DNA from: Pantoea sp. At-9b | GTDB taxonomy: Bacteria > Pseudomonadota > Gammaproteobacteria > Enterobacterales > Enterobacteriaceae | DNA length: 64,000 nt | Assembly: GCF_000175935.2 (NCBI RefSeq) | Contig: NC_014838.1 | Span: 434,001 to 498,000 of the forward strand | Direction: 5' to 3' | In this document: in pieces, positions 56,580-64,000 of the stretch | Layout: each line of letters opens with the position of its first letter | How positions within the stretch are numbered: the first letter of the stretch is position 1 | Made by a program: the position numbers and the translations under genes | Notes under the pieces: model-generated | What the model saw: the letters and a program-made list of their open reading frames with translations, nothing else | Databases searched by the model: none | What the model was told of the DNA's origin: nothing

Positions 56580-57818
56580 TCATTTCAGCAATGCGTCGGT
56601 CTTTCTTTTCTTCGGTCTTTTGACATCAGTAACCATAAACAGGTTGTTAGTTGCGCCGCTGCGAGTCAGCGAGCGTCCAATCGCGGCCTGCAATGCCGGA
56701 AAGTCAGCCAGCAACCCGGCATGCGCCAGTTGGGTGCTGATGACATCGGCAAACTCCTCCAGCACACGTTCCGGATGAATAATTTTTAACTCGCGACCAA
56801 ATTTGATCAGGCTATCACGATCGGGGAACTGCTTGCTTTTATTCAGCTTCAGCGCCAGTTCGTTATCGTTGGTGGGATAAATCTGCGTATTGACCACATC
56901 GTATAACGGCGAGAGTTGCGGGGTGGCGTTCCCGGCGGCCTGATAAACCAGCGAAAAGTTTTTCAGATGTGCATCACCGTTGCCCACCATGCAACTGAAC
57001 AACACATAGCGCCAGTACAACTCGATCTGCGATTGATCGCGGGTAAACAGGCTGACAATTCTGGCACCGGTTTCATAAGATCCCGCGTATTTATGGTCGG
57101 AAGTCTTACCTGCCAGCACGCAAAAATCTTCCATTGCCAGCCGATTTTCTCCATGAATATCAAAGCGTTCCATGATGAACAACTCTTTGTTATCCGAGAG
57201 CCAGAAATCAGCCACCGGTAATCCACAGGCGCGCGCCAGGGACATACAAATAAACTCATTTTCCGCCAGACGGGGATACTCTTCATCACCGGTTTTGGCA
57301 ATCAAATTGGGATACAGCACCGTTCCGCGACTTTCACTGCTGATCATCACTTTGGGCTGCACACCAGAGATCGTCGTTTGCAGCAAATACTTGTTCAGCA
57401 GGTACTGGAAGGCGCTCTCTTTCTGATCCCAGCGCAGCAAATCATCCAGCTTTTCCGGCGTGGGGCGCGGCAAATTGATATCGCTGACATAGGAAAGCGC
57501 GCCAATGCCGCTATCTTGCTGTAATGCCAGAAACAGCATGTCGGAGATGGTCCCCACGTAGCGGCGCAAACGCTCCGCGATATGGTAACGAACATAGCCT
57601 TCAGGAATATTCATCTCAAAGATGTTAAACAAGCGACCCGCGTTATAGCCCATGCGATGGTCCGGTAACATGGTCAGTGACACGCGACGGCTCACCGGGC
57701 TGGCATAAGTGAAGTTATAGCTGCCGTGTTCATGCAACAATCTGCCGCTGTACTCACCGCCGTTATAGACTTCAATCTGGCGGATTGGCCGAGAGAGTTG
57801 GCTCAGGTCAGTCATCAT
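56580..57818 (-). CDS. hipA: HipA-family Ser/Thr kinase toxin
   Basis: A 412-residue kinase starting at the ATG at 57818 (or 57815), which overlaps the end of hipB; GGAGG lies 9 nt upstream. HipA features are an N-terminal couple_hipA domain (about 10-110), the glycine/substrate loop SGVQPKVMIS, hinge ELFIMERFDI, catalytic Asp in GNGDAHLKNFSLVY and metal-binding Asp in LSPLYDVVNT. HipA kinases phosphorylate glutamyl-tRNA synthetase or other targets and halt growth. All catalytic residues appear present. It is paired with HipB as a type II toxin-antitoxin module. Confidence 0.9.
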   Translation of the reverse strand: MMTDLSQLSRPIRQIEVYNGGEYSGRLLHEHGSYNFTYASPVSRRVSLTMLPDHRMGYNAGRLFNIFEMNIPEGYVRYHIAERLRRYVGTISDMLFLALQQDSGIGALSYVSDINLPRPTPEKLDDLLRWDQKESAFQYLLNKYLLQTTISGVQPKVMISSESRGTVLYPNLIAKTGDEEYPRLAENEFICMSLARACGLPVADFWLSDNKELFIMERFDIHGENRLAMEDFCVLAGKTSDHKYAGSYETGARIVSLFTRDQSQIELYWRYVLFSCMVGNGDAHLKNFSLVYQAAGNATPQLSPLYDVVNTQIYPTNDNELALKLNKSKQFPDRDSLIKFGRELKIIHPERVLEEFADVISTQLAHAGLLADFPALQAAIGRSLTRSGATNNLFMVTDVKRPKKRKTDALLK

Positions 57819-58059
57819 CAAACAACGCCTCCAGTTCATCCAACTGCGGCAGGCCCGCGGTTTGTACCGTTAGCATCAGATCCAGTGCGATCAGATAGAG
57901 GGTGAATGCCTTGAGCGAACCGGTGTAGACACCGTTTTCGATCTCTGAAACCAGGGTACGCTGAATCCCCGCCCGTGCGGCGGCAACCTGTTGAGTCCAG
58001 CCTTTGGATTTACGCCGTTCACGACATTTCAGGCCAATCGCTTTCATGCCCGGCAACAT
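57808..58059 (-). CDS. hipB: HipB-like XRE antitoxin/repressor
   Basis: An 83-residue protein from the ATG at 58059 (GGAGG in front; 58047 and 58089 are alternatives). The helix-turn-helix lies at residues about 10-60 (GLKCRERRKSKGWTQQVAAARAGIQRTLVSEIENGVYTGSLKAF), and the acidic tail ends LEALFDDD. It should bind HipA and repress its own operon through the dyads at 58069 and 58109. Its stop overlaps the hipA start, so the two are translationally coupled. Confidence 0.88.
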   Translation of the reverse strand: MLPGMKAIGLKCRERRKSKGWTQQVAAARAGIQRTLVSEIENGVYTGSLKAFTLYLIALDLMLTVQTAGLPQLDELEALFDDD

Positions 58060-58068
58060 AACGCCTCC

Positions 58069-58129
58069 AATGTATCCATATGGTGACAAACAATCTATTA
58101 ATCTAATTTTGTCACCATATAACTACAAA
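58069..58129. promoter_or_regulatory. Two palindromic operator copies upstream of hipB
   Basis: Copies at 58069-58089 (ATGTATCCATATGGTGACA core) and 58109-58129 (TTGTCACCATATAACTACAA core) start 40 nt apart. They match the dyad TGTNNCYATATRGNNACA seen twice after hipA. This is the expected position for HipB autoregulation. Confidence 0.75.
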
Positions 58130-58146: not shown

Positions 58147-58209
58147 GCGCGATAAATCGCGCCGCTACGGTTGTTGATCCTGGTTGTAGCGGCGCGATTT
58201 ATCGCGCAT
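58147..58209. repeat. REP pair (opposite order)
   Basis: GCGCGATAAATCGCGCCGCTAC then its inverse GTAGCGGCGCGATTTATCGC, 17 nt apart, between hipBA and the end of the 58-64 kb operon. Same inside-out order as the pair at 16.0 kb. Confidence 0.85.
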
Positions 58210-58220
58210 TAAAGGGTTGA

Positions 58221-59414
58221 TTATGAACGCAAAAAATCCTGCCAACGGCGCGTCAGATAATTATGCTCATCCATCACTGAGTTCCAGACGGCAATATGGC
58301 TCATGCGTTGTTCATAGCTGCCACCGTCACGGCTTTCGCCTTCCGGTATCAAGGGCGCACCCCATGCGTCGTACAGCATTTCCGCTGCGGGTTTGCCGCC
58401 ATACCAGAAATCCCACTCAGCGGCAGAGAGATGGGCACGGCTACGCGCCGGATTGGAGATGTAATACCCCTGCCGTGCCATCACCGCCCCCGGCCAGCCG
58501 GATTGCCACCAGTTGAGGTAGTCATAGGCGGCGTCTTTGATGCGGCCCGTGGCGCAGCGGGACAACGACATGCCGCCATACCACGCGCGATACCCTTCAC
58601 GCGGGTGCGCCATCTTATAACCACGCTGATGGAAGTGGTGGCGGAAATAGATCGGTGCCCACAGACTCTGTACCTCCACCTGGCGGTTTTCAATCAAATC
58701 ACAGGCTTGCTCTTGCGTGGCCCAGAAGGCGGCAAAATGCCCGTGACGATTAAGACGCGATAGTTCCTGCGTCAGTACATCGATCTCTTCCAGCGCCAGG
58801 TTACCGGTATTGGCAAAACGCGCCAATCCTGCCCCCTGCATCGCCAGCGCCGCATCCAGGCCGCCCATCGCGGCATCTTCCTGCAACGCCACCTGACCGG
58901 TCAGTGCCGGGTGCAACAGCCAGCCCCAACTCTCCGGCTCATCACGCAACGCCGCAGGCAGTCGATCTACGTGGTAGGCAAAGCTATCGGCATTGTGGGT
59001 CAGCGGCAGCATACTGATGTGATCGCTCGGCTGGCTGCCAAGGTGTAAATCACGCTGCACATACAAACGCTGCGAGGGCACGCTGCCGTCAGCCAACACG
59101 CCATTGGCGTTGAGGGTGCCGGTTTTTGCCAGCGCATTAACCTCGTCCCACCAGGTCAGACGTTTGATCTCCAGCGGCTGAATGGCACGCGCAGGCCAGA
59201 CAAAATCGATGTTGTGGAACCACTGATCGTAGAGGTCGTAACTTTCGGGATGCATCACCGCAATACGTTGCGCATCTTCTACGCTGCGCAACAGATATTC
59301 AATTTTGATGCCGAGATCCTGCTCCGCGCGCACGCGCAGCATCTCCAGCAGCGTGACGGAGGTTCCGAGCACGCGTAAGGTCAGTTGGTCATTGACCACT
59401 GCCGCAGAATTCAT
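58221..59414 (-). CDS. PotD-like solute-binding protein without signal peptide
   Basis: A 397-residue protein from the ATG at 59414, preceded by GAGGAG and 4 nt after the CobW-family gene. The fold is that of type II polyamine/thiamine-like binding proteins: LTLRVLGTSVTLLEMLRVRAEQDLGIKIEYLL at the start, SYDLYDQWFHNIDFVWPARAIQPLE in lobe 1, NADSFAYHVDRLP, ESWGWLLHPALTGQVALQED and the C-terminal WWQSGWPGAVMARQGYYIS. The mature-like sequence starts within 12 residues of Met and no export signal is possible in frame, so it seems cytoplasmic. No ABC permease or ATPase accompanies it. Last gene of a seven-gene operon. Role unknown. Confidence 0.8.
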   Translation of the reverse strand: MNSAAVVNDQLTLRVLGTSVTLLEMLRVRAEQDLGIKIEYLLRSVEDAQRIAVMHPESYDLYDQWFHNIDFVWPARAIQPLEIKRLTWWDEVNALAKTGTLNANGVLADGSVPSQRLYVQRDLHLGSQPSDHISMLPLTHNADSFAYHVDRLPAALRDEPESWGWLLHPALTGQVALQEDAAMGGLDAALAMQGAGLARFANTGNLALEEIDVLTQELSRLNRHGHFAAFWATQEQACDLIENRQVEVQSLWAPIYFRHHFHQRGYKMAHPREGYRAWYGGMSLSRCATGRIKDAAYDYLNWWQSGWPGAVMARQGYYISNPARSRAHLSAAEWDFWYGGKPAAEMLYDAWGAPLIPEGESRDGGSYEQRMSHIAVWNSVMDEHNYLTRRWQDFLRS

Positions 59415-59418
59415 ACCG

Positions 59419-60441
59419 TTATGGCTCCTCAAACGCCCGCAGGTAGCGGCTGAACGCCTGTTGCAGGCGATCGGCCTCCAGACCGCGCAAAATAAATACC
59501 AGTTTTGAACTCTCCAGCTCACCGGGCCAGTCGTGCAGATGCTCCGGCGGATGTAAGGTATGCTGCACGCCGTGGATGACAATCGGCGAGCGGCTGTCGC
59601 TGACACGTAAAATGCCCTTCATCCGCAGCACCGTGCGACCGTGGCAATGTAATAGCATTGACAGCCAGATAGCAAATGCTGGCCAGTTTAATGACTGTTG
59701 TAGGGTGATCACGCAGGTTTGCGTAACCGGATGTGAAACGCCGGGCGTCACCGGAGCCAGACGATACGCCTCCCCGGCGCAGTCACCCAGCCAGCGGAAA
59801 CGTTGCTGACGTGAACCGCTGCGTAACGGCAGACGAAACAGTTGGTGCGGGTCATCCAGTGCAGTGCGGGTATCGCTGAGTTGTGCCAGCGGATTGAGCT
59901 GGCGCAACCAGTCCGCCAGCGCCGTCTGCTGCGCATGAGTGATGCGATCACCTTTGCTGATCAGCAGCTTATCTGCGGCGCTGACCTGTGCCAGCCATTC
60001 CGGTTGCGCATCCGCCTGCATGCGCGCATGCTCCGCATCCACCAACGTCACCAACGTCCCCTGACTGAAGTGATGCTGAAGCTGGCGGTCATGCAGCAGT
60101 GTCGAAAGAATCGGTGACGGGTCGGCCAACCCGGTGGTTTCCAGAATCACCTGCCGGAACGGAGGCAGCAGGCCACGTGCCCGACGTTCAAACAGATCGA
60201 GCAGTGCGGTTTTCAGTTCACCACGGATCTGACAGCAGACACAGCCGCTCGGCAGCAGCACGGTATCGGGCGCAACCTGGTTGAGCAGATGATGGTCAAT
60301 ACCGACTTCGCCAAACTCGTTGACCAGCAACGCCACCTCATTGAGGTTCTGCTGGGCCAGCCAGCCTTGCAGCAAGGTGGTTTTACCGCTGCCGAGGAAA
60401 CCGCTCAGCACGTGCAGGGGCAATTTTTCCTGATAATCCAT
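59419..60441 (-). CDS. COG0523/CobW-family metal GTPase
   Basis: A 340-residue P-loop GTPase. Walker A GFLGSGKTT is at residues 14-22, the metal-binding CxCC motif is C67-V68-C69-C70 (SGCVCCQIRGEL), switch II is LETTGLADPSPI and the base motif is ISKGD. The C-terminal CobW_C domain (about 240-335) ends with LVFILRGL. Family members are metallochaperones for zinc, nickel, cobalt or nitrile hydratase iron. Here it is within an operon of SDRs and a binding protein, so it may load a metal into one of them. Separated from neighbours by 9 and 4 nt. Confidence 0.9.
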   Translation of the reverse strand: MDYQEKLPLHVLSGFLGSGKTTLLQGWLAQQNLNEVALLVNEFGEVGIDHHLLNQVAPDTVLLPSGCVCCQIRGELKTALLDLFERRARGLLPPFRQVILETTGLADPSPILSTLLHDRQLQHHFSQGTLVTLVDAEHARMQADAQPEWLAQVSAADKLLISKGDRITHAQQTALADWLRQLNPLAQLSDTRTALDDPHQLFRLPLRSGSRQQRFRWLGDCAGEAYRLAPVTPGVSHPVTQTCVITLQQSLNWPAFAIWLSMLLHCHGRTVLRMKGILRVSDSRSPIVIHGVQHTLHPPEHLHDWPGELESSKLVFILRGLEADRLQQAFSRYLRAFEEP

Positions 60442-60450
60442 CCGCTCTCC

Positions 60451-60738
60451 TTACAACGCGTTAAGCCAGGCATCATCCAGCGGATCAATGGGTCGCCGGA
60501 TCATTTTTTCCGCTTCCTGCCACAGCACATCCAGTGAGTTGACCAGCATTTGCTGCCCGGTCGGGCTGGCTAACAGCCAGCTGTTGTGAAACTCGGTTAA
60601 CGTCAGCCGCCACGGCTTGAGCGCGCGGTTCAGAAGTGCCAGCTGTTGCAAACGTAGCTGGCGTTGGGGGATATCCTGCCGCAGCGGATCGCTCCACTGC
60701 GGCCCGTTATCCAGCAGGCCGCAGACTCCACACATCAT
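60451..60738 (-). CDS. Small hypothetical protein with N-terminal CxxC
   Basis: A 95-residue protein (or 94 from the second ATG). Ribosome site GGAGG. It begins MMCGVCGLLDNGPQWSDPL, a CxxC right at the N-terminus, followed by a mostly helical body (QRQLRLQQLALLNRAL, WLLASPTGQQMLVNSLDVLWQEAEKMI). I do not recognise a family. Its place directly before the CobW GTPase (9 nt) and its early Cys pair suggest a metal- or redox-linked partner, but this is inference. Confidence 0.72.
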   Translation of the reverse strand: MMCGVCGLLDNGPQWSDPLRQDIPQRQLRLQQLALLNRALKPWRLTLTEFHNSWLLASPTGQQMLVNSLDVLWQEAEKMIRRPIDPLDDAWLNAL

Positions 60739-60746
60739 TGCCTCCG

Positions 60747-61493
60747 TTATGGCATCACATCGCCGGAATTCGGCCCCAGCGTCTGGCCGACAAACAGGTT
60801 GCCGCCCGGTTCACTGGCGAGCAGTAACGCCACCGGAGCCACTTCTTCCACCCGGCCAAAACGCCCCAGCGGCAGTTCAGCCGCTTTGGCCTGTTTCCAT
60901 GCCTGATTGATACCCTCAATCAACGGCGTTTCAATCGGTCCGGGCGCGATAGCATTGACCAGCACGTTATCCGCCGAGACTTCCAGCGCCAGCGATTTAG
61001 TAAAACCTATCACACCCGCTTTGGCCGCCGCGTAATGGCACAGCTCTGCGCCACCTTTAATCCCCAACTGCGAGGCAATGTTAATGACCCGGCCCCAGCG
61101 CTGCGCCAGCATGGCGGGCAGCGCTCGCTGGGTGGCGAGGAACACGCTACGCAGATCGACCGCCATCATTTCTTCCCACATGGTCAGCGAAATGTCCGTG
61201 CAACGCGCCTGGGTTAACATCCCGGCGTTATTGACCAGCACGTCGATACCGTCATAGCGCGCGAGGCAGGCATCCACCCCGGCGGTGGCACCGGCGACCT
61301 CGCCAACATCCGCCACCACCGCCAGGCACTCCCCACCCCATTGCTGACAGTGCGTCACCTGCAACGCCAGTTTGTCGGCGTCGCGATCGGTTAAAATCAG
61401 CCGGGCACCCTCGCGAGCGAAGAGCTCGGCAATCGCTGCCCCGATACCGCTGGCTGCGCCAGTAATGACACAACGTTTATCTTTCAATAGCAT
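60747..61493 (-). CDS. Short-chain dehydrogenase/reductase (second SDR)
   Basis: A 248-residue classical SDR: cofactor motif TGAASGIG (11-18), NNAG, catalytic Ser in INIASQLG and YAAAK. The Asp at the end of the second strand (LTDRDADKL) favours NAD(H). The C-terminus is GQTLGPNSGDVMP, where SDRs usually have VDGG, so substrate binding at the tail is altered. It lies 9 nt from each neighbour in the operon. Substrate unknown, probably a small alcohol or hydroxy acid. Confidence 0.88.
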   Translation of the reverse strand: MLLKDKRCVITGAASGIGAAIAELFAREGARLILTDRDADKLALQVTHCQQWGGECLAVVADVGEVAGATAGVDACLARYDGIDVLVNNAGMLTQARCTDISLTMWEEMMAVDLRSVFLATQRALPAMLAQRWGRVINIASQLGIKGGAELCHYAAAKAGVIGFTKSLALEVSADNVLVNAIAPGPIETPLIEGINQAWKQAKAAELPLGRFGRVEEVAPVALLLASEPGGNLFVGQTLGPNSGDVMP

Positions 61494-61502
61494 AGCGGCT
61501 CC

Positions 61503-62279
61503 TTAGTCCGGCCAGCGCACGGTCAGACCGCCATCCACGATCAGGCTTTGCCCGGTGAGATAGCTGCTCTCTTCACTGGTAAGAAAGGCGATCACCTTGG
61601 CGATCTCATCCGGACGTCCGACACGCGCCAGAGGAATGGCGCTGGCGGCTTTTGCCAGACCTGCCGGGCCGAGCGAATTCTGCGCATCCAGCGATTGCGG
61701 TGTTTCTATCAATCCCGGGATGATGGCGTTGCAGCGCACGCCACGCGGGGCCAGCTCTACCGCCAGCGAGCGGCAGATGCCCGGCACCGCCGCTTTGGCG
61801 GCAGCGTAGTGGGCATGGTCCTGCCAGCCGTAGACGCCACCGGCGATAGAGGACACCGCCACCAGGCTGGCACCGGCGTGCAGATGGGGCGTGGCCGCGC
61901 GAAAGCAGCGCATCACGCCCGTCAGATCGACGTTCAGCATGGCGTCCCAGCGTGCGTCGCTCATCTCTTCAATCGGGGCGCGACGTAAGATTCCGGCATT
62001 CGCCACCAGATAATCCAGGCGGCCAAAGTGCTGCACCCCCTGCGCGATAAACGCATCGACTGAAGCGGTTGACGCCACATCCAGCGGTAACCACAGGGCA
62101 TCCCCCCCGGCGGCTTCGACCTGCGCCGCCGCAACGGCAGGATCGTGCGGATCGGCGGGATAGTAACCGGCGATGATTTTCACGCCACGCTGGGCGTAAA
62201 GCGTGGCCAGCGCCAGACCAATGCCGCTGGCGGCACCGCTGATCGCGGCGACCGGCTGAGTTGAAGACGAAAGCTGCAT
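61503..62279 (-). CDS. Short-chain dehydrogenase/reductase (first SDR)
   Basis: A 258-residue classical SDR: SGAASGIG near residue 14, NAG in VANAGILRRAPI, catalytic Ser in VAVSSIAGG, YAAAK and the usual C-terminal LTGQSLIVDGGLTVRWPD. It differs strongly from the SDR that follows, so the two probably catalyse successive steps rather than being a duplication. It follows the MFS gene by 9 nt. Confidence 0.9.
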   Translation of the reverse strand: MQLSSSTQPVAAISGAASGIGLALATLYAQRGVKIIAGYYPADPHDPAVAAAQVEAAGGDALWLPLDVASTASVDAFIAQGVQHFGRLDYLVANAGILRRAPIEEMSDARWDAMLNVDLTGVMRCFRAATPHLHAGASLVAVSSIAGGVYGWQDHAHYAAAKAAVPGICRSLAVELAPRGVRCNAIIPGLIETPQSLDAQNSLGPAGLAKAASAIPLARVGRPDEIAKVIAFLTSEESSYLTGQSLIVDGGLTVRWPD

Positions 62280-62288
62280 AGCAATTCC

Positions 62289-63653
62289 TTAAGCGGTAGT
62301 CACCGCTGAACTGACGTCAGTACGCTGCGGAGCGTGCGCACGGGCGAAAAACATAATAATGCCGGAGATAAAACACGGGACCGCACCGAACCACAACGCG
62401 GCATCCTGCCAGTGGCCGCCACTGCTCAGCACGCTGGTGGTGCCGACACCGGCGATAATCGCGCCCACCGGCCCCATAGCACCAATCAACGCACCGGCGG
62501 TGGCACGGATGGCGGTCGGGAAACTTTCACTGATAAAGAACAGCGCTGCGGCATACGGGCCAATCAGGAAAAACAGGCCGATACTGTAGAGCGCGACGAT
62601 GGTGGCGAAGTTATCCGGGCAGTAAAGCATCGCGGCAAAAGCGACACCGCCAAGCATCCAGCCAACGGCAATGGTATTGCGACGACCAATACGATCGCCG
62701 AGCCAACCGTGCACCAGGTAGCCGCAGTAACCGACGAGGTTGGAGAGAATCAGGATTAATAACGAGTTATTAAACGAAACCTCATGGGTTTTGGTGATCA
62801 CGGTGGTGCCCAACACGCTAAAAATCTGAATCGCGAACCAGTTGATCAACACCGCACCCCCCAACACCAGCGTGGCGCGCAGTGACGGTCCACGAAACGC
62901 AGCGGCCAGGCCAGCACGGTGCTGTTCTTCCCAGGAAACCTGATAATCATCTGCTACCTGACGCGCATCACGATCGTTACCCTCAGCGCGCAGTTGCTGA
63001 ATCTTCTTCTGTACCTGGAATTGCGGGGTTTCTTTCAGTTTCAGTGCCAGGAAGGCAATCACCAGCGACGGCAGCGCGGCAAAGATAAAGCTGCCCTGCC
63101 AGCCGATGATTGGCATCAGGATCGCGGTCAGCGCAGAAGCCACCAGCGCCCCTACCGGCCAGCCACCCTGCACCAGGCTGTAGACAAAGCCTTTGCGTTT
63201 ATTGAGTTTCGGGTCGTCAATGGCGGTATAAAGCTCCGACAGATACGTCGCGTTGACCGTCTGCTCGGCATAACCCAGACCTGCGACCGAACGAATCGCG
63301 GTCAGCGCGCCTTTACCCCAGGCACCTCCGACAGCGGTTAACAGCGAGCAGAGCGCCGCGCCGCCGACGGTGACCACAATCCCCATACGACGACCGAGAC
63401 GATCCACCAATGGGCCAATCGCCAGCGCGATGACCGCACCACCAACCGCAACCCAGGTGGCGATTTCAGCCTGCTCGACCTCGCTCCAGCCGAAATGTCC
63501 GCCGATTTCCGGCAGCAAAGTGCCAAACAGGATGAAATCATAAACAGCAAAAACCCAGGCGAAAAAAGCAATCCAGGTGGCAAATTTTACGTCCCTGATG
63601 GTCAACTGCTGCGGCTGCCAGCCATTTACGGAGATTTTCTTAAAGATGCTCAT
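62289..63653 (-). CDS. MFS transporter (AAHS/sugar-acid type)
   Basis: A 454-residue carrier with twelve helices. The loop motif between helices 2 and 3 is GPLVDRLGRRMGI, and the equivalent in the second half is GWLGDRIGRRNTI. A long cytoplasmic loop (about 215-265, charged) separates the halves. Such carriers import aromatic acids, sialic-acid-like sugars or organic acids. It lies between the deacetylase and SDR genes, so it likely imports the operon's substrate. A 98-bp gap with a REP separates it from the deacetylase. Confidence 0.87.
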   Translation of the reverse strand: MSIFKKISVNGWQPQQLTIRDVKFATWIAFFAWVFAVYDFILFGTLLPEIGGHFGWSEVEQAEIATWVAVGGAVIALAIGPLVDRLGRRMGIVVTVGGAALCSLLTAVGGAWGKGALTAIRSVAGLGYAEQTVNATYLSELYTAIDDPKLNKRKGFVYSLVQGGWPVGALVASALTAILMPIIGWQGSFIFAALPSLVIAFLALKLKETPQFQVQKKIQQLRAEGNDRDARQVADDYQVSWEEQHRAGLAAAFRGPSLRATLVLGGAVLINWFAIQIFSVLGTTVITKTHEVSFNNSLLILILSNLVGYCGYLVHGWLGDRIGRRNTIAVGWMLGGVAFAAMLYCPDNFATIVALYSIGLFFLIGPYAAALFFISESFPTAIRATAGALIGAMGPVGAIIAGVGTTSVLSSGGHWQDAALWFGAVPCFISGIIMFFARAHAPQRTDVSSAVTTA

Positions 63654-63702
63654 AGCGCTATCACTCTGTCAGGGGGTTAACGGGTTACAACTCGCATATT
63701 CC

Positions 63703-63746
63703 GTAGTGGCGCGAAATTTCGATGCGCGATAAATCGCGCCGCTACG
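63703..63746. repeat. Compact REP pair
   Basis: GTAGTGGCGCGAAATTTCG (a degenerate left unit) adjoins an intact GCGCGATAAATCGCGCCGCTAC. It lies inside the presumed operon, between the deacetylase and MFS genes. Confidence 0.75.
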
Positions 63747-63751
63747 CGTAC

Positions 63752-64000
63752 TTAGCGCGGTTGGCGCTGTTTAAAGTCGTCGGCGATCTCGTCAAAGGTG
63801 ACGAAACGCACGCCTTCGTGGCTACGGATATACTGAATCAGGCGTTCCAGCATCAGCAGCACCTGCGGACGGCCAGACACGTCGGGATGGATGGTCATGG
63901 TGAACACCGCGTAGTCGTTTTCGCGGTAAACCCAGTCAAACTGATCACGCCACATCTCTTCCAGATGGCGTGGGTTAACGAAACCGTGGCTGTTAGGGGA
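63752..64000 (-). CDS. Polysaccharide deacetylase family protein (5' part beyond window)
   Basis: Only the C-terminal 83 residues are seen; the frame is open to the right edge, and an internal ATG at 63955 is not the start. [51 protein letters not shown] and [13 protein letters not shown] match the C-terminal third of PuuE/allantoinase-like NodB-fold deacetylases, including the late His (TIHPD). These hydrolyse C-N bonds in small cyclic amides or N-acetyl groups. Probably the first visible gene of the 58-64 kb operon. Confidence 0.8.

Follow-up and report, generated by a model that had tools for sequence, protein, structure and literature searches.

A conserved operon in Pantoea sp. At-9b with a predicted cyclic-imide core, a putative metal-insertion pair and a candidate cytosolic binding-protein sensor

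An operon at the end of a 64,000-nucleotide stretch of Pantoea sp. At-9b (NC_014838.1, positions 434,001 to 498,000; the whole stretch is called the window) combines gene families known from several described systems. The HxnW/HxnM/HxnN branch of Aspergillus nidulans unites a short-chain dehydrogenase/reductase (SDR), a cyclic imidase of the HpPgdA type and an amidase in one regulon; deletion mutants led to the proposal that HxnM opens 3-hydroxypiperidine-2,6-dione, after the SDR HxnW and before the amidase HxnN, and HxnM is reported to be 64.2% identical to a Pseudomonas putida cyclic imide hydrolase homolog (PMC9304392 and PMC8478523). The bacterial operon differs from that branch by a second SDR, a predicted metal-insertion pair, a GntR regulator with a solute-binding protein (SBP), and, in this genome, the loss of the amidase. 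HpPgdA (HP0310; structure 3qbu) resembles the imidase of the operon over its full length and also lacks a signal peptide; unlike HpPgdA and P. putida AAY98498, the latter named in the two papers on the fungal branch, the imidase here is embedded with a CobW GTPase and a 95-aa partner. Catabolism of cyclic imides by way of a half-amidase is also a feature of Blastobacter. Fifteen COG0523 subfamilies were described by Haas et al. (2009), partly by gene neighbourhood, and their metallochaperones, such as the activator of Fe-type nitrile hydratase and CobW, share with the GTPase of the operon a P-loop, a CxCC motif, a CobW_C domain and a position beside a probable client (PMC2770081). Here the probable client is a NodB-fold imidase, and a small MCxxCG protein accompanies the pair. 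FadR-type regulators join a GntR winged helix to an FCD domain and, as here, are divergent from their operon; the present regulator differs by its two GntR stretches, by the loss of the FCD histidines in most alpha- and betaproteobacterial members and by its constant SBP companion. TorT and TorS represent a type of sensor pair made of a periplasmic binding protein and a histidine kinase. The nearest exported relatives of the binding protein described here belong to pairs of this type, whereas this protein appears cytosolic and has a GntR regulator as its constant companion.

We propose, with a probability of roughly 55%, that this operon serves the breakdown of a cyclic imide or related hydroxylactam and consists of a catabolic core and two separable modules, A for metal insertion and B for sensing by an SBP. 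The gene set is conserved yet uncharacterised, and probably serves to take up and open small ring-shaped amides. In the scheme that we infer, a major facilitator superfamily (MFS) carrier, replaced by an ABC transporter in rhizobia, would bring the substrate, a small cyclic imide or related hydroxylactam, into the cell; one or both SDRs would oxidise a ring hydroxyl, the HpPgdA-type imidase would open the ring to a half-amide, and an amidase, whose part may be played by an enzyme of the asparaginase family in two clusters, would free ammonia to leave a dicarboxylate. Module A would be the metal-insertion pair of the imidase, formed by the 95-aa MCxxCG protein together with the COG0523 GTPase. 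In module B, the signal-less binding protein would bind the substrate or an early product in the cytosol and relay the signal, possibly by direct contact, to a double-winged-helix GntR/FCD repressor, whose predicted sites are AAATGTACATTT palindromes between the regulator and the operon.

The seven minus-strand genes at 58221-64000 listed by the first-pass annotation are all present, and the gaps of 9, 9, 8, 9 and 4 nt that it gave, starting at the MFS gene, were identical when re-measured. In relatives the order is GntR, amidase, deacetylase, MFS, SDR, SDR, 95-aa protein, CobW and binding protein, so that these seven are the last seven of nine genes. The divergent GntR gene lies just beyond the window edge (L006:8953-9963, window-equivalent 64952-65962; L numbers designate the loci and stretches read, and L006 is the genome stretch from which genes past the window edge were taken). 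The amidase, carried by relatives between GntR and deacetylase, is missing at the Pantoea sp. At-9b locus, and a search of the 6.3 Mb genome found no ortholog, giving only matches of 31-38% identity; with its dedicated amidase lost, this strain would need another amide hydrolase.

The ring-opening enzyme carries the assignment of the core. Its gene (minus strand) has its 3' part at 63752-64000 and is complete at L006:7753-8628, running to window-equivalent 64627, with a likely start ATGGCC at L006:8628; the protein begins MAKEIL and has no signal peptide. It had been described as a PuuE-like deacetylase, of which the NodB fold stands and the PuuE affinity does not: the full-length protein scores 542.6 bits against 3qbu (HpPgdA) over residues 8-299 of the called frame, compared with 62.9 bits against the PuuE allantoinase entry 3cl6 and 72 bits against 1z7a. 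The only part scanned with the NCBIfam PuuE model TIGR03212 was the 82-aa fragment within the window, which gave 35.9 bits for a cut-off of 424.6. By sequence it is a member of the HpPgdA/cyclic imide hydrolase family, with imide hydrolysis as its predicted activity. Since the enzyme groups with HpPgdA and the cyclic imide hydrolases, the genes appear suited to opening an imide ring, hydrolysing the half-amide and oxidising by SDR, in the manner of the lower part of fungal nicotinate catabolism (HxnW/M/N). After 98 nt from the imidase stop follow the MFS transporter (62289-63653, 454 aa) and two classical SDRs (61503-62279, 258 aa, and 60747-61493, 248 aa), all on the minus strand; Pfam bore out these family labels as well as CobW with CobW_C. 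The top NCBIfam model of the MFS carrier was aromatic acid/H+ symport, at 135.4 bits, far under the cut-off of 418.55. A catabolic operon with MFS uptake, hydrolytic ring opening, SDR oxidation and a GTPase serving a metal enzyme was a reading that our results support, and the literature searches made also found no known pathway with this combination of genes, in agreement with the first-pass annotation.

Conservation was analysed in a genome scan with the binding protein as the sole query, using the best 80 of 284 confirmed loci. The full nine-gene order was found in 65 of these 80, as were the SDR, imidase and amidase families together, and the same gene order kept in so many loci makes the operon more than chance. 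Six loci were interrupted by contig ends, five lacked the amidase alone (L015, L016, L017, L050 and L066), and four Lonsdalea loci were reduced to GntR, SDR 2 and the binding protein, a second SDR match there being a cross-hit. The closest named relatives by binding protein were Pantoea and Mangrovibacter. Plasmid records showed the cluster in Paraburkholderia and, rearranged, in Halomonas, as well as in rhizobia and Thioclava; in the last two an ABC transporter takes the place of the MFS carrier. The distribution is sporadic: the binding-protein cluster occurs in 5 of 149 genomes of the window's own family, and the binding protein (E up to 1e-121) in 40 of 297 Rhizobiaceae, of which 36 belong to the signal-less class and 4 lie next to ABC genes. 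Complete operons including the amidase are carried by plasmids of Klebsiella pneumoniae (L115) and Pantoea (L107); the former plasmid is typed as conjugative, and insertion sequences adjoin its operon. For module B we used 140 loci (these 80, 14 from plasmids, 36 from Rhizobiaceae, 1 and 9 others), a set with at least three contigs that appear duplicated, judging by equal lengths (L208/L014, L210/L021 and L211/L060), and in which rhizobial imidase, amidase and CobW counts (L167, L168, L170-L172 and others) are lower bounds because the regions read ended too early, as shown by L257, L258, L263, L264 and L266.

Neighbouring genes bear on the substrate. An asparaginase-family gene stands beside two clusters with no detected amidase: in L121 it is directly 3' of the binding protein, which is the amidase position in rhizobia, and in L276 it is on the opposite strand after CobW; a half-amide product therefore fits. 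5-Oxoprolinase-type genes (PxpA/B/C) occur near 21-23 of the 36 Rhizobiaceae loci, mostly just past GntR, and again evoke a cyclic amide; as a clue they could not be turned into a substrate. Beside GntR in L116 (7504-11759), PxpA, a biotin carboxyl carrier, a biotin carboxylase and PxpB/PxpC-type genes form a 5-oxoprolinase-like set.

A narrower form of our proposal makes the operon the bacterial counterpart of HxnW-HxnM-HxnN, converting 3-hydroxyglutarimide or a hydroxylactam precursor into L-2-hydroxyglutarate. The three enzyme families common to one regulon suggest it, as do an annotated L-2-hydroxyglutarate oxidase gene (lhgO) adjoining one Shinella cluster and an FMN-dependent dehydrogenase gene beyond GntR at the present locus. 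As a constant neighbour lhgO is not supported: in the stretches read it adjoins 1 of 14 plasmid clusters and none of the 36 Rhizobiaceae loci. Pyridine hydroxylases and other upstream hydroxylases were absent from the annotation tables viewed, no search having been aimed at them, apart from a molybdopterin oxidoreductase in L118; there are two SDRs here for one HxnW, and the likeness to HxnM, HxnN and HxnW is one of families. We regard this precise route as unlikely.

Returning to the wider proposal, module B begins with the last gene of the operon (58221-59414, minus strand), which encodes a PotD-like SBP of 397 aa from the ATG at 59414. It has no export signal, and so departs from the SBPs of ABC transporters as judged from its sequence; a longer GTG frame overlaps the CobW gene. 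It matched no Pfam family itself, and its relatives match SBP_bac_8. Among the 140 loci, 108 binding proteins had leaders no longer than 25 aa that lack a twin-arginine translocation (TAT) motif and 31, that of the window included, had a longer upstream open frame overlapping the neighbouring gene, with no signal visible by eye; three of these 31 frames matched a crude TAT pattern, and L160 could not be scored. The first-pass annotation had remarked that the binding protein has no transporter. Open reading frames and Pfam did reveal no ABC permease or ATPase gene in the window operon, and this ceases to be an anomaly if the protein is a cytosolic sensor.

The companion of the binding protein is GntR, found in 132 of the 140 loci, the other eight being cut by contig ends (L028, L036, L055, L058, L060, L068, L161 and L211). 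The two genes are directly adjacent in 14 of the 140; the GntR of L109 was located in L117, and tblastn identified the GntR genes of L167 and L168. For loci chosen by their SBP this co-presence is weak evidence, because any catabolic operon can be expected to have a regulator nearby. A reverse search with a GntR model was made for that reason in 121 Rhizobiaceae genomes: strong matches (339-472 bits) lay in SBP clusters in 9 of 9 cases and weaker sister GntRs (210-261 bits) in none of 15, a score gap that is partly built in because the model was trained on SBP-linked GntRs. In the order to which the window belongs, GntR (E up to 1e-50) was present in 2 of 197 genomes, both with the SBP. In the 26 genomes that encode the small 95-aa protein (see below), SBP and GntR occurred together in 14 and were jointly missing from the other 12, within flanks of up to about 10 kb, a co-absence that the training of the model does not build in. 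The pair also accompanies other enzymes: its neighbours are hydantoinase-type genes in L120, whereas L119 has hydantoinase/oxoprolinase and ABC genes. Narrow text searches of the literature found no paper on a signal-less SBP paired with GntR, and nothing related to a cytosolic coregulator of periplasmic type.

The ancestry of the binding protein points to sensing. In a phylum-wide sample, relatives (E up to 1e-20) were present in 73 of 398 genomes, and the proteins that rank by score just below the signal-less class (510-545 bits) had twin-arginine leaders. Nineteen such loci were read (L125-L144 minus L142); they form a recurring unit, a twin-arginine-type binding protein usually followed by a long same-strand protein. 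A TAT-like leader was present in 18 of the 19, and the long proteins, scanned in 10 loci, were histidine kinases in all 10, nine with receiver domains. In a tree of 61 proteins, a chosen subset, these kinase-linked relatives joined the signal-less clade with support of 99/98, and the transporter-linked (ABC-type) proteins fell outside. The cytosolic protein is therefore closest to a sensory, and not a transport, branch. Fifteen residues of the signal-less clade, among them H67, D70, W252, E383, H384 and N385, are missing from the kinase-linked relatives; they could reflect a changed ligand pocket, a contact with GntR or an active site.

The regulator has the FadR-type composition in Pfam, with a GntR winged helix, here in two stretches, and an FCD domain. 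The FCD histidines are metal and ligand residues. All 14 sister regulators compared retain them (of the 15, one was below the score limit), and so, gaps aside, do the gammaproteobacterial ones; among 46 SBP-partnered alpha and beta GntRs, a set that includes some duplicates, 12 have the first histidine, 13 the second and 44 the third. With up to 3 mismatches allowed, the divergent regions of 84 gamma loci contained a mean of 3.18 AAATGTACATTT sites, compared with 0.36 in 20-base block shuffles, and 77 of the 84 had at least two sites; the palindrome was chosen from the very regions in which it was then counted. Alpha divergent regions did not show it. The perfect site AAATGTACATTTA occurs once in the whole genome, within this divergent region; with one mismatch allowed there were 12 matches, no more than the 10 of a reversed control. 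In loci that have lost the amidase, the palindrome lies directly against the start of the imidase gene. We tentatively propose, at a little short of even odds, a new cytoplasmic sensor, in which a PotD-like SBP, sister to periplasmic sensors linked to histidine kinases and now without export signal, would be the ligand partner of a GntR/FCD repressor whose own ligand site would have decayed in most alpha and beta members.

Alternatively, the signal-less binding protein could be a pathway enzyme, with H67, D70, E383 and H384 forming a novel catalytic or metal site that CobW might supply. Solute-binding folds have turned into catalysts in MqnA/MqnD and DszB. These four residues are kept in the cytosolic clade and are mostly N, N, T and Y in the kinase-linked relatives, the binding protein has many invariant positions, and CobW adjoins it in 116 of the 140 loci. 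Against this, the binding protein follows GntR into clusters with other enzymes (L119 and L120) and is retained in the reduced Lonsdalea clusters, and the 12 small-protein genomes that lack the binding protein lack GntR as well; we consider this explanation rather improbable.

Module A in our proposal consists of the 95-aa protein (60451-60738) and the COG0523/CobW GTPase (59419-60441, 340 aa), both on the minus strand. The former, with no Pfam or NCBIfam match, has an M-C-x-x-C-G start (MC, then C-G four residues later) and few further fixed residues; the latter carries the marks of COG0523, a P-loop (GFLGSGKT at 14), a CxCC motif (CVCC at 67) and a CobW_C domain. In an independent search of 199 Rhizobiaceae genomes with the 95-aa protein as query, 26 contained it, with CobW adjoining in all 26 and the imidase at most 1.5 kb away in 24; the exceptions were L247, whose imidase lies farther upstream, in L276, and L253. 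We infer from these linkages and motifs that the pair loads the metal of the imidase. The accessible part of PMC2770081 makes no mention of a COG0523 subfamily with an imidase and a small MCxxCG partner, and titles and abstracts, among the matches listed, which dealt with the fungal pathway, allantoinase, 2-hydroxyglutaramate, the HpPgdA structure and COG0523, gave no COG0523-imidase link. Apparent small proteins without CobW in L174 and L176 were artefacts of region ends (L256 and L249); in L173 the small protein was seen without CobW in the stretch read.

The same search separates the modules. The first-pass annotation had grouped CobW with the 95-aa protein and the PotD-like protein as a trio, which could be one metal-dependent machine, and most gamma and many rhizobial loci do carry the three side by side in this order. 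The neighbourhood comparison shows two separable groupings instead. The 95-aa protein and CobW accompany the imidase in genomes with no binding protein at the signal-less level, 12 of the 26 having none, and in L018-L021 and L118-L120 the binding protein and GntR have neither CobW nor the 95-aa protein in the flanks read, as is also true of the SBP in L169. Around those 12 genomes, two regions (L272 and L273) hold weaker binding-protein relatives (298-316 bits) beside ABC genes. A CobW-SBP fusion was considered and rejected, the long SBP frames of L158, L165 and L166 containing no CobW domain. A single three-protein machine is thus very improbable. Least probable of all is that the protein is a normal transport SBP that serves a transporter elsewhere and either is decaying or is exported despite lacking a recognisable signal, a reading suggested by the fold family and by the ABC transporters of rhizobial clusters. 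Most of these clusters have another, distinct SBP (about 190-230 bits) bearing a leader of twin-arginine type, as seen in 29 of 36 Rhizobiaceae loci and in 7 of 14 from plasmids. Conservation across the alpha-, beta- and gammaproteobacteria makes decay unlikely, and the window operon has no ABC permease gene.

Besides the limits given with the GntR scores and the palindrome counts, several points weigh against the proposal of a cyclic-imide core with modules A and B. HpPgdA itself is reported in PMC3084791 to act as a deacetylase on crude peptidoglycan. This genome and the five loci named above lack the amidase, and lhgO is not a constant neighbour. Imidase clusters with no 95-aa/CobW pair in the flanks read exist (L118 and L169), so the pair may be helpful and not indispensable. 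The frequent adjacency of CobW and the binding protein cuts across the two modules, the clade-specific residues are also compatible with an enzyme, and the single origin of the signal-less clade has weak support (78/50). Finally, the gamma GntRs, that of this genome included, keep their FCD histidines and so may sense a ligand themselves.

Beyond the last gene, two inverted REP-like elements (58147-58207, no strand assigned) flank the operon and are not part of it. The REP-like element GTAGCGGCGCGATTTATCGCGC has 11 copies at 11997-63745 of the window (up to 2 mismatches), mostly in inverted pairs, and none in 100 shuffles; two copies lie 3' of the operon and one between the imidase and MFS genes. 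A HipA-family protein is encoded just past the operon end (56580-58089, minus strand), perhaps in a HipBA-type pair with an upstream 93-aa frame that has no Pfam match at the limit used. Past GntR, L006:10169-14983 contains a plus-strand MFS carrier and FMN-dependent dehydrogenase, followed on the minus strand by a D-serine-dehydratase-type gene and a PALP enzyme.

If the proposal is true, the operon would be a bacterial counterpart to steps that the authors on fungal nicotinate catabolism describe as having no prokaryotic equivalent. It would also give one branch of COG0523 GTPases a probable client and a small partner, and it would mean that a transport-type binding protein can move into the cytosol to serve a transcription factor.

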